Origin: Candidatus Saccharibacteria bacterium QS_5_54_17
Lineage (GTDB): Bacteria > Patescibacteriota > Saccharimonadia > QS-5-54-17
NCBI GenBank assembly: GCA_003022365.1
Contig: PXOU01000018.1
Span: forward strand, 139,964 to 172,030
Direction of reading: 5' to 3'
DNA: 32,067 nt
The stretch's first letter is position 1; the number at the start of each line of letters is the position of its first letter. The translations under genes and the position numbers were made by a program. Below are positions 26,894-31,927 of the stretch, in pieces. The notes under the pieces are model-generated. The model had not been told where the DNA came from, did no database searches, and worked only from the letters and a program-made list of their open reading frames with translations.

Positions 26894-27703
26894 TTACTGC
26901 TGCTTGGCCTCAGACTCCGTCTGCTCGATTTTTTCCCGTTCATACCAATACAAGCAGTAATCGCATTCCTCGGAAGGTTGGGGCATTTGGTCGCTGTTGA
27001 GGGTATGCTTGATCTGGTAAATCATCGGTTCCACCCACTCATCGTTTCCCTTATGCGGAATGATGTTAATGTCAAAATCTATCCGGGCGTCAAACTTGTC
27101 CTTATCCCGTTGCCCGGTACAGTACACCCAATACCCGGTATCGGACACAATGAGGCCATTCCGCCTGAGTAGCCATTGGTAAATTTCCAACTGCCGCCGG
27201 TATCTATTATGGTGATCGGCGTTTCCCAATTTTTTAACCGGTTCGGATTTGGCGGTCGCCTTGTAGTCTACCACGATGTACTCGCCGTTACTGTTGATCC
27301 ACAGATCGTCGATGGCGCCGGTTATGATGAAATTAGTCGGTTGGTGGTGGAACTGGGCGCCTTTGAAGTTTTCCCGCCACTCATCCAGCATATCGTGGGC
27401 GACCGGGCGGGCATCGATACCGAAATGCTTGATCAAGGGATGCGTACTTTCCTTTTCCCGTAAGGCGTCGAATTCGTTTTTGAGTAAATTATCAACTGCC
27501 GAGTTGAGCGCGAATGGGTACCCCGGCGGCCGATCGACGCCCATCCGCCGGTCGATGTAAAAACACCGCGGACATTCCATAAATAAGTCGATCCGCGACC
27601 GGGACAGTTTGAACGGCTGTCCCTCGTCTGGATCGTACATGTTTTTGCTGCGTTTGCCTCGATAATAATCGCTCATGGCCTCATTGTATAACGAGCCGTC
27701 CAT
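26894..27703 (-). CDS. PD-(D/E)XK superfamily nuclease with two CxxC pairs
   Basis: A 269-residue RecB/Cas4-type nuclease candidate. Core motifs are visible: LSRSRIDLFMECPRCFY near the N-terminus, GAIDDLW with Asp132, EYIVVDYKAT with Asp146 and Lys148, and a QxxxY helix QLEIYQWLLR (171-180). Two CxxC pairs (Cys44/Cys47 and Cys247/Cys250) bracket the domain and could hold an Fe-S cluster or zinc, as in AddB and Cas4. The spacing is not that of Cas4, and no cas genes or arrays are present, so a repair or general DNA-processing role is more likely. Start is uncertain: ATG at 27703 or at 27676. The histidine kinase begins 47 bases downstream. Confidence 0.85.
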   Translation of the reverse strand: MDGSLYNEAMSDYYRGKRSKNMYDPDEGQPFKLSRSRIDLFMECPRCFYIDRRMGVDRPPGYPFALNSAVDNLLKNEFDALREKESTHPLIKHFGIDARPVAHDMLDEWRENFKGAQFHHQPTNFIITGAIDDLWINSNGEYIVVDYKATAKSEPVKKLGNADHHNRYRRQLEIYQWLLRRNGLIVSDTGYWVYCTGQRDKDKFDARIDFDINIIPHKGNDEWVEPMIYQIKHTLNSDQMPQPSEECDYCLYWYEREKIEQTESEAKQQ

Positions 27704-28868: not shown

Positions 28869-29048
28869 TTATGTTTGCATAATATATTGTATTACAAACA
28901 CTCGCGAAGCTAAGGTGGATAAAGCGGTCTTGGGCCTTTCACAAATCGAGGCAAGCAGTTTTTTGTCACGTATGCCATAATCACCACCGGTCGCATCGAT
29001 TATGCGATCATGGATATACACGATATCCGGTTCACTCAGATGGCGCAT
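28869..29048 (-). pseudogene. Truncated Doc-type toxin (death-on-curing, Fic fold)
   Basis: An ATG directly follows the antitoxin stop (TAAATG), and the frame runs only 59 codons. Residues 1-42 match the N-terminal region of Doc/Fic proteins of phd-doc modules: LSEPDIVYIHDRIIDATGG, then DYGIRDKKLLASICERPKT, comparable to the family pattern IHD...GG..GIRD..LLESAL.RP. After that the sequence loses similarity (ALSTLASRVFVIQYIMQT). The Fic core HPFxxGNKR is absent, and no continuation is found before the next gene at 28836. The toxin should be inactive. An inverted repeat ATTATG-TTTG-CATAAT (28869-28884) lies at its end. Confidence 0.72.
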
Positions 29049-29315
29049 TTAGCGTTCAGCCAGGTTTTCCAAAGCCGGACGGTACTGTTCAATGAACGCT
29101 CTGGTCCACTCATCTAACTCACTATTATCCGAGGCCTGCTCCACTTGCTGGCGCCGGTCCTCGTCTATTAACTTCTTGAGTAATTCTAAATCAATAACAG
29201 CCTTATCCCCTTTGCCGCGTTTGGTGATGATCAGAATGTCATCTTTGGTGAGGGATTGTAATTCCTTGCCGAAATGATTGCGAAGTTCGCTCGCTTTAAT
29301 GGTCTTGGTGCTCAT
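29049..29315 (-). CDS. Phd/YefM-type antitoxin
   Basis: An 88-residue antitoxin when started at the ATG at 29315, which has AAGGAGG five bases upstream; an in-frame extension to 29336 is unlikely. The N-terminal DNA-binding domain reads STKTIKASELRNHFGKELQS and DILIITKRGKGDKAVIDLELL, the Phd/YefM pattern. The C-terminal half (EDRRQQVEQ, LDEWTRAFIEQYRPALENLAE) is helical and would wrap the toxin. The gene is intact and still has its promoter and a palindromic operator, although the adjacent toxin is truncated. Confidence 0.85.
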   Translation of the reverse strand: MSTKTIKASELRNHFGKELQSLTKDDILIITKRGKGDKAVIDLELLKKLIDEDRRQQVEQASDNSELDEWTRAFIEQYRPALENLAER

Positions 29316-29328
29316 GGGTGCCTCCTTC

Positions 29329-29362
29329 GTGTACAATTGAAGTGTACATTACAATTGTACAC
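29329..29362. promoter_or_regulatory. Palindromic operator of the antitoxin gene
   Basis: GTGTACAATTG (29329-29339) and CAATTGTACAC (29352-29362) are perfect inverted repeats, with a further half-site GTGTAC (29342-29347) between them. The array overlaps the -10 box and the start of transcription, the usual place for Phd autorepression. Confidence 0.75.
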
Positions 29363-29382: not shown

Positions 29383-29515
29383 TAACTACAGGATGTCGAG
29401 GATATTCTTAACAATCGTTCCCGGAAACGGTATGGTTGGAACAGTCCGCTCGAGCAACGGGAGCTCGTGCTGGCGAAAGCCTAGCTGGAAACTTTGGGGA
29501 GAGAATCGAGGGTAG

Positions 29516-30274
29516 CTGGAGAGTAATGAACGGTTGTGGGATTACGTTCGCGCCAGGCTGCACCAGCTGTGGTCACCCCAACAGATTGCCATGCGTATCC
29601 GCAGGGAGTATCCTCTGGACATCGATATGCGTATCTCACCGGAAGCCATATACCAGTATCTGTACGTCCAGCCGTCCAAGGAACTCCGGCGGCTCTTGCG
29701 GCACGGCCATCTGCACCCGGCTCGCCGGGGACGCCCCAAAAAGGGCGAGACGCGCGGCCAGATCCCGGATATGACCATGATCGACGAGCGCCCCGAGGAA
29801 GTGATCCCGCGCTTGGTTCCCGGCCACTGGGAAGGCGACATCATCAAGGGCGCCTACAACAAGTCCGCCCTCGGTACCCTGGTGGAACGCCGGACCCGCT
29901 ACACCATCCTGGTCCCGCTGACCGCCTTTGACGCCGAGAGTGTACGGAAAGCGTTCGCCGAAGCACTCACCACTCTCCCCGACGACATCCGGAAGACCCT
30001 CACCTACGACCAGGGCAAGGAAATGGCCGACCATATCCAGCTCGCCCTCGACACTCCCGTGCAGGTATACTTCTCCCACGAGGGATCGCCCTGGGAACGC
30101 GGCGCAGGCGAGAATACCAACGGCCTCGTCCGGCAGTTCTTCCCCAAGGGTACTGACTTCACCCGGGTGTCCCACGAGGAGGTCAAGCGGGTCCAAGCGC
30201 TTTTGAATGACCGGCCCCGCAAGGTGCTTGGTTTCCAGAAGCCGGATGAGATATTATCAATGGTGTTGCGCTAG
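29516..30274 (+). pseudogene. IS30 family transposase, N-terminally truncated remnant
   Basis: The frame from 29516 to the TAG at 30274 encodes about 252 residues of an IS30 transposase lacking the helix-turn-helix part. It begins LESNERLWDYVRARL and HQLWSPQQIAMRIRREYP, and the DDE catalytic domain is complete: VPGHWEGDIIKGAYNKSALG (first Asp), TYDQGKEMADH (second Asp), PWERGAGENTNGLVRQFFPK (Glu) and the end DRPRKVLGFQKPDEI. It is preceded in frame by a TAG at 29513-29515. The 29365-29515 stretch contains only a weak trace of the missing part in another frame (NNRSRKRYGWN...). No terminal inverted repeats or target duplication could be identified. Intact IS30 enzymes have over 300 residues, so it is probably inactive. 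Confidence 0.85.
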
Positions 30275-30293
30275 ATTTTTGAAACCAAGTAAT

Positions 30294-30731
30294 TTAACTA
30301 GTCTCATATGGTTTTTTCATAAATAAAACAACTTTTCCATAATTATTACCTTCAAGACTCCATAGAGACTCGTGTTCTATATCTTCAAAACCACCCAATT
30401 TACTACTCCATTTTCCATTTTGTAGTTGTTTTGCCGCATGTGTTGGTATGCCATGGCTATCAGCATAAATGGCAATCTTTTCATATCCATCCTCTAAACT
30501 GGAGTCTTCACAAACTTCATAGTCCAGTAGTCTATAGACTTCTTCGAAAGCCTCTATAGTACATTCAAGTGCTGCTTCCTCCGGCCAATAAGAAAACTGA
30601 CTTGGCCACCACCACCTATTGGTCGAGCCAGCAGCCCATGCAATACAATTGTATCTATCATCTTGAGGACTTGTTACCTTGTAACAACCTCTCAAAGCAG
30701 GGAAGATTTTTTCGATGTGCTCATCGTACAT
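30294..30731 (-). CDS. Uncharacterised Cys/His protein with NCIAWAAG motif (DUF7689-like)
   Basis: A 145-residue soluble protein from the ATG at 30731; a TTG at 30755 is an alternative. It holds YNCIAWAAGSTNRWWWP near the N-terminal third and, later, HGIPTHAAKQLQNGKWSSKL and FEDIEHESLWSL. A Cys at the head of a helix followed by a conserved His in the C-terminal half recalls papain/NlpC-like folds (inference). I recall similar proteins under an uncharacterised family (DUF7689), but this is memory and not a search. It overlaps the previous gene by 11 bases, so expression is coupled. It is A+T-rich relative to the chromosome and is the last gene of the cassette. Confidence 0.75.
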   Translation of the reverse strand: MYDEHIEKIFPALRGCYKVTSPQDDRYNCIAWAAGSTNRWWWPSQFSYWPEEAALECTIEAFEEVYRLLDYEVCEDSSLEDGYEKIAIYADSHGIPTHAAKQLQNGKWSSKLGGFEDIEHESLWSLEGNNYGKVVLFMKKPYETS

Positions 30732-31170
30732 AACCGTGTGTTCTTCCCCACTCAAGCCAAATCCGCGCCATAGCTTCCTTGTCTCCTCTTACATCTTTAG
30801 GAATTGGGTCAATTCCGGTTATTGCATTTAACGCCCAGAACCAATCTCGTGTAGCTTTTTTAAATTCTTCAAAAATAAAAGGTAATGCATCTTCGCCCAT
30901 CCCAATAATTTCCTGATAAGCCGGGTGTAGAGACTTCTTATGAATATCTGAAAGATGCATTGTTTCATGCTCCCAAGTGGCGGCCAAATTATAAAATCTG
31001 GTTCTTAATGTTGTTCGCGTAATCGGTTTTTCGTAATGAGCTTCTGTAGTATCGAATTCCTCTTTTAGATTACGGGCTGTTTCGCTGATACCTGTTTCAA
31101 CTTTATTATCTCTAATTCCTTTATCAAGCACGTCATCGTAATTTAAGTGTGGAGAAAGCGCCAACGCCAT
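30721..31170 (-). CDS. Uncharacterised helical protein of the TIGR04255-linked cassette
   Basis: A 149-residue soluble protein. The ATG at 31170 is chosen because GGAAAG precedes it at a normal distance and the upstream gene ends 4 bases before. The frame is open to 31284, but that extension overlaps the neighbour. The first 60 residues (MALALSPHLNYDDVLDKG...) are followed by a conserved-looking block: ATWEHETMHLSDIHKK, HPAYQEIIGMGEDALPFIF, DWFWALNAITGIDPIP and ARIWLEWGRTHGYVR. The pattern of short helices with GMGEDALP and WFWALNAITG looks HEAT-like (inference). I have a general memory of such proteins next to TIGR04255 genes but cannot name a function. Confidence 0.78.
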   Translation of the reverse strand: MALALSPHLNYDDVLDKGIRDNKVETGISETARNLKEEFDTTEAHYEKPITRTTLRTRFYNLAATWEHETMHLSDIHKKSLHPAYQEIIGMGEDALPFIFEEFKKATRDWFWALNAITGIDPIPKDVRGDKEAMARIWLEWGRTHGYVR

Positions 31171-31174
31171 CGTA

Positions 31175-31927
31175 TTACTTTCCTTTTTCTTTAAATTTTC
31201 CAATTGCTTCGTCCGTGATGCTGCTGAAGAATATTTGGTTTTTATATGTCCTAAGTTCCTCAAGCTTACTAGACATAGCGTCATAATCTATCGAAAAGAT
31301 TTCTTCACAAAACACATCTACATCCATAATGAAAGGAATGCTTTTCTCTGTTACCTCTTTCGGGTTGATTGCCTCTGTTAATATGCCTATATTGTTCTCA
31401 TTGTTTTTGTCAGGGAATACTAACCTCATAAACATTTCCCTTAAGACGAAGGATTTATCATCTTTAGTTCTTGGTAAAGTAACGATGTAATCATCCAACG
31501 TCTTGCTTCTTGGAATATCAATTTTATTTATAAACCTCACCCCTATTCTACTGATTGAATCCGGTTGCATAGTATCAACATAGTCTTCCCACAGTGGCTT
31601 GAATAAATTAATAAATTTAGACCATCCCTCGTAGTCGCCCACGAAACTAAATGTGAAACCATCATTATCTACCTGAACAAATTCACTACCATCTAAGGAT
31701 TTGAAAGCATAACCCTTAACAGCCTCTTCTTGGCTTAAATCATGTTTCTCCTCTTCGCTTTTTTTGCTAAGACTTACGCTAAGTTCTCTCTTGATCTGTT
31801 TTTCAGGGAAATTGTCGATAATTTTTTCATGAAATGTTTCTACATACTCATGAACATCTTCTTGAGAAGTTCGAATATCTATTAACGCTTCTTTAATAGG
31901 GGGGTCTAAAAGGTTTTCATCAGCCAT
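31175..31927 (-). CDS. TIGR04255 family protein
   Basis: A 250-residue soluble protein of an uncharacterised family. Matching features are PPIKEALIDIRTS at the N-terminus, GYAFKSLDGSEFVQVDNDGF followed by TFSFVGDYEGWSKFINLFKP, LWEDYVDTMQPDSISRIGVR and RFINKIDIP, then a C-terminal half with VDVFCEEIFS and a helical end. No enzyme motif is visible. It is the first gene of a three-gene minus-strand cassette with gaps of 4 and -11 bases. The start ATG at 31927 lacks a clear ribosome-binding site. A near-palindrome CATAACATGTTACTATG lies just upstream (31930-31946) and may be an operator. Base composition is markedly A+T-rich, suggesting acquisition by transfer. Confidence 0.8.
   Translation of the reverse strand: MADENLLDPPIKEALIDIRTSQEDVHEYVETFHEKIIDNFPEKQIKRELSVSLSKKSEEEKHDLSQEEAVKGYAFKSLDGSEFVQVDNDGFTFSFVGDYEGWSKFINLFKPLWEDYVDTMQPDSISRIGVRFINKIDIPRSKTLDDYIVTLPRTKDDKSFVLREMFMRLVFPDKNNENNIGILTEAINPKEVTEKSIPFIMDVDVFCEEIFSIDYDAMSSKLEELRTYKNQIFFSSITDEAIGKFKEKGK

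Follow-up and report, generated by a model that had tools for sequence, protein, structure and literature searches.

A mobile TIGR04255-headed cassette carrying a putative antitoxin-toxin pair with a predicted papain-like enzyme of the DUF7689 family

A compact three-gene cassette and its genomic setting

At one end of a contig from Candidatus Saccharibacteria bacterium QS_5_54_17, three closely packed genes raise the question of whether they form a functional unit and, if so, of what kind. A sequence-only reading of the window, i.e. the whole stretch of 32,067 nucleotides that was analyzed, had described them as a transferred, A+T-rich cassette resembling those of defence systems, with a possible papain-like Cys/His pair in the last gene. 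The coordinates confirm the head-to-tail layout that it gave: all three genes lie on the - strand within 30294-31927 (Table 1), with a gap of 4 bases between the first, coding for a TIGR04255 family protein, and the second, coding for a helical-looking protein that we name HEL, and with an 11-base overlap (gap -11) between HEL and the third, coding for a DUF7689 protein. The DUF7689 frame begins with ATG, and a TTG 24 bases upstream (30755) is also in open frame. The deviating composition is equally apparent: the cassette has a G+C content of 0.376 as against 0.543 in the rest of the window (1-29400), where the lowest value among windows of the same length (1634 bases, step 50) is at least 0.487. 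A scan for promoters and terminators yielded results at chance level.

The cassette (locus L001) is terminal on contig C18 (genome size 816 kb), with only 140 bases of contig remaining upstream of the first gene. At its left edge is the IS30 remnant noted earlier, a transposase ORF without its N-terminal part, which corresponds to positions 100-337 of the 344 positions of phrog_4646. The adjoining broken toxin-antitoxin module is likewise present, comprising a Phd-type antitoxin and a 59-aa Doc/Fic fragment, whose matches lie below the curated cut-offs. A spacerless inverted repeat with 17-base arms that are 88% complementary is found at the start of the Phd module and could be an operator. 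The window also codes for a stand-alone PD-(D/E)XK nuclease (Pfam PDDEXK_1, 8.6e-16; PADLOC Cas4 models, down to 1.4e-11). Because a 99-base stretch at the left of the IS30 piece recurs without a mismatch in contigs C14 and C8 of the same genome, both of which have IS30-like genes containing N gaps, the junction between the cassette and the rest of the window is possibly an assembly join; in other words, the joining of the two through IS30 repeats may be an artefact. The view of the cassette as compact, foreign and mobile is supported.

Table 1. Positions of the cassette genes, their key elements and neighboring features in the window
Feature	Position	Strand	Evidence
Gene 1, TIGR04255 family protein, 250 aa	31175-31927	-	NCBIfam TIGR04255, 119.3 bits (cut-off 30)
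Gene 2, HEL, about 149 aa	30721-31170	-	Pairs and co-evolves with DUF7689
Conserved C-terminal HEL domain, about 92 aa	30727-31002	-	Domain bounds and alignment of relatives
Gene 3, DUF7689, 145 aa	30294-30731	-	Pfam PF24738, 147.7 bits (gathering cut-off 22.6); AlphaFold2 pLDDT 95.1; VIA-align
Cys29 codon, predicted nucleophile, opening short helix 29-33	30645-30647	-	27/29 aligned sequences
His98 codon, predicted catalytic base, on strand 96-102	30438-30440	-	29/29 sequences
His120 codon, candidate third catalytic residue	30372-30374	-	29/29 sequences
Asp117 codon, candidate third catalytic residue	30381-30383	-	29/29 sequences
IS30 transposase ORF lacking its N-terminal part	29534-30274		phrog_4646
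Region of the IS30 piece	29400-30290		
Inverted repeat, operator candidate	29329-29362		
Phd-type antitoxin and Doc/Fic remnant	28869-29336		
Stand-alone PD-(D/E)XK nuclease	26894-27703		Pfam, PADLOC

HEL and DUF7689 form an almost inseparable pair

The implied co-occurrence of the three families holds for HEL and DUF7689, which constitute a nearly obligate, co-evolving pair, and fails for TIGR04255, which accompanies only a few such pairs (see below). Within the phylum, HEL was recovered in 3 of 379 genomes, two of these weakly, and PF24738 in 4 of the 379, three of them at 21.9-23.6 bits; the only strong members of the two families in this set are those of the window. A HEL pattern scan over a genome collection comprising 84,980 species recovered 12 loci from Planctomycetes, Chloroflexi, Cyanobacteria, Spirochaetes and other lineages, and in all 12 DUF7689 is the next gene downstream, in one case split. 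The reverse test, which made no use of HEL and searched 292 cyanobacterial genomes with Pfam PF24738, yielded 24 sites in 17 genomes (25 rows, one gene being in two pieces), with HEL upstream at 22; the exceptions are L044, located at a contig end, and L048, with a divergent protein that appears NlpC-like by eye. One of the genomes (G383) was chosen through its HEL match, and without its three sites the cyanobacterial count is 19 of 21. On viral contigs HEL is directly upstream in nine of nine places, which gives a total of 31 of the 33 DUF7689 places found without the use of HEL. Furthermore, across 25 loci the distances among HEL proteins correlate with those among DUF7689 proteins (r = 0.73), a value attained by none of 5000 permutations, the best of which reached 0.30.

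In a census of 56 non-redundant loci, which mixes loci found through HEL with loci found through DUF7689, 44 have both genes, 11 only HEL and one only DUF7689; same-locus repeats and L047, whose HEL is identical to that of L046, were left out. L048 and L055-L057 lie above the PF24738 cut-off and are unmatched by the narrower profile built here. HEL occurs without a following DUF7689 at 8 of 30 cyanobacterial places (one a contig break and one a fragment), and no remnant of DUF7689 was seen in the cyanobacterial HEL-alone loci; the single locus from a scan of viral contigs with a HEL query likewise lacks DUF7689. As that scan gave one locus and the DUF7689 scan nine more, pattern scans evidently miss many members. 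In two cyanobacteria (L067 and L070) a HEL gene without DUF7689 lies directly before an apparent cytosine DNA methyltransferase gene, recognized by eye.

Of the two partners it is DUF7689 that is more often broken. At 8 of the 44 pair loci (L013, L031, L041, L046, L051, L053, L133 and L134) the HEL domain is complete and DUF7689 is not, being split or truncated; at 2 (L028 and L050) DUF7689 is complete and the HEL frame has no normal start; some of these broken frames, such as frameshifts in metagenome contigs, may be sequencing errors. Plasmids yielded no match to HEL or DUF7689, and phage GenBank records none to two TIGR04255 queries and one DUF7689 query. DUF7689 is also absent from 14 control genomes, and consequently there is no well-studied member to draw on.

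HEL, a proposed antitoxin, and its domain architectures

HEL has no NCBIfam match, and its Pfam and PHROGs rows are at chance level; among PADLOC models it reaches 15.8 bits (E 0.0014) with the Class II Aga_SIR2 model. Its relatives share only the C-terminal ~92 residues and differ in their N-terminal parts; in the window the protein ends directly after the conserved domain, and the variable part is N-terminal. An additional Pfam domain above cut-off was detected in 4 of 21 HEL proteins scanned, each fusion in a single relative: DUF433 (2.6e-22), SocA_Panacea (1.8e-23, in L039), HU/Bac_DNA_binding (1.6e-18, at the C-terminus) and GAF (2.8e-6). Those of L020, L035 and L039 are of DNA-binding or antitoxin type. 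In the window's own HEL Pfam detected no DNA-binding domain, and the RHH- and Phd-like N-termini of some HELs are discernible by eye only, having received no confirmation from Pfam. The HELs of L043 and L062 have large uncharacterized parts, and in those of L005, L007, L033 and L046 the N-terminal part is nearly absent (14-20 aa). By eye HEL looks HEAT-like. A shared HEAT-like origin of HEL and the second genes of the other cassettes described below was not supported by profile comparison with hhalign, which recovered no kinship of HEL with two of those second-gene families.

The variety of partner domains (DUF433, Panacea, GAF, C-terminal HU and the large uncharacterized parts) would also be in keeping with protease-dependent signalling, in which HEL, as adaptor or substrate domain, would couple a DUF7689 peptidase to varied N-terminal domains, to be released or switched by cleavage. 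However, the four HELs with minimal N-termini leave nothing to release, and three of the four recognized partners are antitoxin, DUF433 or DNA-binding domains; we consider such a signalling role quite improbable. Based on the close pairing, the antitoxin-domain fusions, the occurrence of HEL alone and the more frequent breakage of DUF7689, we instead read HEL and DUF7689 as a new toxin-antitoxin pair, with HEL as the antitoxin and DUF7689 as the toxin, an assignment that we regard as likely.

DUF7689 is predicted to be a papain-like enzyme

Fold prediction, which had been suggested as a check, yielded a high-scoring model of DUF7689 (Table 1). Foldseek recovered no match to it at E <= 0.001. 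VIA-align, in contrast, placed the effector AvrPphB first (1ukf; Z 6.2, rmsd 3.5, 117 aligned), along with NlpC/P60 enzymes (Z 5.5), the papain-like toxin/immunity pair 9l5u (Z 5.4), a CdiA-CT domain (Z 5.2), Tse1 (Z 4.6) and Tae3. Most of the VIA matches listed are papain-like, all with Z <= 6.2, and a match with Z below 8 possibly reflects only a common arrangement. The possible papain-like Cys/His pair noted in the last gene would correspond to Cys29 and His98, with an Asn-Cys before the helix and two further conserved candidates for a third catalytic residue (Table 1); the exceptions to the cysteine are L044 and L045, which have serine, and in L045 the HEL frame is also without a normal start. 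At the sequence level DUF7689 has no Pfam or PDB match to papain-like enzymes, and none of the three family profiles retrieved a credible match from PDB, the tau rows obtained with DUF7689 being dismissed as a short chance motif. We regard DUF7689 as quite probably a papain-like cysteine enzyme.

These structural neighbors include several delivered papain-like toxins (the 9l5u pair, Tse1, Tae3 and the CdiA-CT domain), and the part of PMC3482391 consulted describes, in polymorphic toxin systems, papain-like toxin domains, one with the signature NC-H-DxQ, as well as a HEAT-repeat immunity family. This precedent keeps alive an alternative in which DUF7689 is a toxin module delivered into other cells and HEL is the cognate immunity protein, which would agree with the Asn-Cys before the helix and with the HEAT-like appearance of HEL. 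Yet the DUF7689 ORFs are short, mostly 130-190 aa, and no trafficking domain was seen on them; moreover, the HEL profile has no sequence match to any PDB chain and hence none to the partner in 9l5u. Further, the HEL gene precedes that of DUF7689, and some loci have it joined to a DNA-binding or antitoxin domain. Both this order and such fusions are unusual for immunity proteins, and we judge a delivered effector-immunity pair to be quite unlikely, preferring a DUF7689 toxin that would act within the cell that makes it.

TIGR04255 heads three-gene cassettes with exchangeable pairs

TIGR04255 precedes the HEL-DUF7689 pair at 5 of the 44 pair loci (the window, L003, L009, L010 and L127) and was not found at the other 39, in each case as far as the flanks reach. 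The three genes are one instance of a wider class of three-gene cassettes in which the first gene is joined to exchangeable pairs. TIGR04255 itself is present in 4 of 145 genomes of its own phylum (one below cut-off), 22 of 244 in Cyanobacteria, 9 of 126 in Chloroflexota and 5 of 125 in Spirochaetota. In a first set of 37 distinct TIGR04255 loci, two more genes in the same direction follow, with gaps of <= 30 bases, at 36. Among 121 comparison genes of similar size from the loci this holds for 34, simple ORF calling having been used for both; a second set, from Chloroflexota and Spirochaetota, has the three-gene unit at 13 of 14 new loci. Over both sets TIGR04255 heads such a unit in 49 of 51 distinct loci, with the second gene present in all 51. 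These counts leave out L091 (below cut-off), L116/L118 (broken gene), L029, L135 and L148 (which equal loci L010, L001 and L009) and other same-locus repeats. In L116/L118 the TIGR04255 gene is broken into two frames and the downstream ORFs remain open. A co-directional gene within 30 bases upstream was seen at none of 35 informative loci of the first set and at 5 of 13 of the second; hence TIGR04255 is usually, though not always, the first gene.

Particular second and third genes tend to occur as partners. For five of six multi-member groups of third genes, there is a group of second genes from exactly the same loci. Members of the sixth are accompanied by second genes of more than one group, and the third genes that go with one second-gene group (L101 and L111) are unlike each other. 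Among the third genes Pfam detects PIN domains (L109, 6.8e-11; L149, a 55-aa piece, 4.5e-5), HEPN domains (L106, 4.7e-8; L123, 4.2e-6; L140, below cut-off) and a Zeta toxin (L120, 3.1e-12, a general AAA model scoring slightly better). Several third-gene families have no significant Pfam or NCBIfam match, and that of L150 is HicA-like by eye only, with no match in Pfam. Among the second genes, an HTH domain is above the Pfam cut-off in L138 and just under it in L094. A set of third genes with a [TS]-[QSN]-x-C-D-[LI] motif, grouped partly by eye, represents an unnamed, widely exchanged effector candidate (L089, L090, L093-L098, L102, L104, L110, L122, L138, L142 and L147). Another unnamed third-gene family (L092, L105, L114, L141 and L144) has a second gene that mostly ends in a conserved WW-containing domain.

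The presence of PIN, HEPN and Zeta toxins at the same operon position, the sporadic and partly viral distribution of the HEL-DUF7689 pair and its antitoxin-domain fusions all run counter to a role outside biological conflict, whereby a peptide-processing enzyme and its regulator would have spread by chance. With no known phenotype, and with DUF7689 missing from the control genomes, such a role can be entertained, and we hold it to be very unlikely.

The AlphaFold2 model of TIGR04255 (pLDDT 92.1) predicts two similar beta-alpha halves. Its best Foldseek matches are AdoMet decarboxylases (E 2.9e-4, TM-scores about 0.3), and VIA-align gave guanidino kinases (Z 8.6, 181 aligned, rmsd 4.0) and TATA-binding proteins (TBP; Z 6.6, 149 aligned, rmsd 5.0); what these neighbors have in common is a duplicated beta-alpha sheet layout. 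An alignment of 28 TIGR04255 sequences leaves just two invariant residues, Y99 and F233, and on this ground a kinase or decarboxylase role was set aside and the protein is read as a binding protein rather than an enzyme. Neither SecB nor another chaperone fold is among the matches listed, and the TIGR04255 profile has no PDB match. A phage protein family of unassigned function, phrog_5464, matches TIGR04255 weakly (24.7 bits).

Its apparent absence from most HEL-DUF7689 loci might indicate that TIGR04255 is a mere passenger or expression aid placed before ordinary two-gene toxin-antitoxin pairs. The constancy with which a second gene, and nearly always a third, follows TIGR04255 in the distinct loci speaks against this, and we deem it unlikely. 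We favor TIGR04255 as an active third component, which is the more probable interpretation.

Phage and plasmid contexts

The likeness to defence cassettes had been remarked on from the outset, and some neighborhoods do show links to phages. The pair is present on nine viral contigs, some near virion genes: in L127 the complete TIGR04255-HEL-DUF7689 cassette lies between a Mu-F-like gene (below the Pfam cut-off) and a virion morphogenesis gene, and virion morphogenesis, terminase and NlpC/P60 genes are nearby in L128, L129 and L131. TIGR04255 cassettes are also found on a Pantoea plasmid between phage lysis and terminase genes, and on the Thermus plasmid pTB1 (L123), where the HEPN gene is unannotated and VapC and cas6 are close by. 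A scan of viral sequences with the Pantoea TIGR04255 protein found nothing. Among models of known anti-phage defence families, PADLOC 2.0.0 (2023) has no match for the first and third genes or for ten related proteins, and for HEL only the low-scoring one given above. The phage and plasmid neighborhoods suggest that these cassettes serve in phage-phage or phage-host conflict, or in addiction; a use directed against phages is somewhat less likely than not, and we advance it with reserve.

A model for the cassette and its implications

We infer that the cassette is probably a mobile, tripartite toxin-antitoxin-like module. DUF7689 would be a small papain- or NlpC-like cysteine enzyme and the intracellular toxin, its target probably being a protein or peptide bond. 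HEL would be the cognate antitoxin, its C-terminal domain binding DUF7689 and its variable N-terminus carrying the regulation, in some relatives through DNA-binding or other antitoxin domains. TIGR04255 would lack enzymatic activity and would control the pair as a scaffold or sensor, with a role like that of the chaperone in toxin-antitoxin-chaperone (TAC) systems and apparently another fold; in the other cassettes that it heads, PIN, HEPN, Zeta or uncharacterized pairs stand in place of HEL-DUF7689. Disturbance of the complex, for instance by a phage, might then release the enzyme and stop growth.

Since TIGR04255 heads units with varying second and third genes, the window contains one version of a polymorphic tripartite design, which is apparently undescribed. 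The literature searched contained no paper naming TIGR04255 or DUF7689, and the titles and opening lines of abstracts on papain/NlpC toxin-antitoxin systems, tripartite systems and cysteine-protease toxins mention no such system. More tentatively, and with more doubt than belief, we raise the possibility of a large, hitherto undescribed family of immune cassettes, polymorphic and tripartite, with TIGR04255 as their constant hub: a scaffold or sensor of duplicated beta-alpha fold that would hold exchangeable pairs (with DUF7689, PIN, HEPN, Zeta or uncharacterized effectors) and free the toxin on meeting a phage component.

If the model is right, two unnamed families gain a role: DUF7689 would be the protease-like toxin of a toxin-antitoxin pair, and TIGR04255 the part that stays the same in many cassettes while their toxins are exchanged. 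We found no report of a papain-like toxin in such a toxin-antitoxin pair in the literature searched, such toxins being known from delivered systems (PMC3482391, in the part consulted). Were TIGR04255 indeed a sensor, this one family could serve to uncover and set off many as yet undescribed toxins, the third position already showing several of them.

Comparison with known systems

With type II toxin-antitoxin systems, including Panacea (PanAT) and NetFlax (PMC8832971 and PMC10440598, in the parts consulted), HEL-DUF7689 shares two small overlapping genes, partner swapping and antitoxin-domain fusion, and L039 even combines the HEL domain with Panacea itself in one protein. The compact two-gene operon of cognate partners typical of type II systems is seen here in the overlap of the genes, the upstream position of HEL and the co-evolution of the two proteins. 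In contrast to PanAT and NetFlax, HEL corresponds to no family in the libraries and its putative toxin partner is papain-like by prediction; third genes, according to a passage in those sources, occur there in only a small fraction of genomes, and the words NlpC, papain and peptidase are absent from the two main texts.

Papain-like enzymes, namely NlpC/P60, AvrPphB and the papain-like domains of polymorphic toxins (PMC3482391, in part), provide the best fold neighbors and the same Cys-His order, and DUF7689 has the conserved Cys at a helix start, the His and a further polar residue in that order. It differs from them in being a short stand-alone ORF without a recognized extra domain and without sequence similarity detectable by Pfam or PDB searches.

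TAC systems, such as CmdTAC and the M. tuberculosis HigBA1-SecB-TA (PMC11618068 and PMC5105189, in the parts consulted), resemble the TIGR04255 cassettes in combining a third gene with different toxin-antitoxin families. However, the third gene here comes first, codes for about 250 aa, and has listed fold neighbors other than SecB. The chaperone of classical TAC systems attaches to a tail at the C-terminus of the antitoxin (PMC5105189, in part); the window's HEL has no such chaperone-addiction tail, and for this reason the cassette is not filed as a TAC. In CmdTAC the toxin accumulates only in the presence of its antitoxin (PMC11618068). There a phage capsid protein pulls the chaperone off the complex, whereupon the antitoxin is degraded and the toxin freed (PMC11618068, in part), and CmdTAC is the closest functional model for the proposed TIGR04255-HEL-DUF7689 module.
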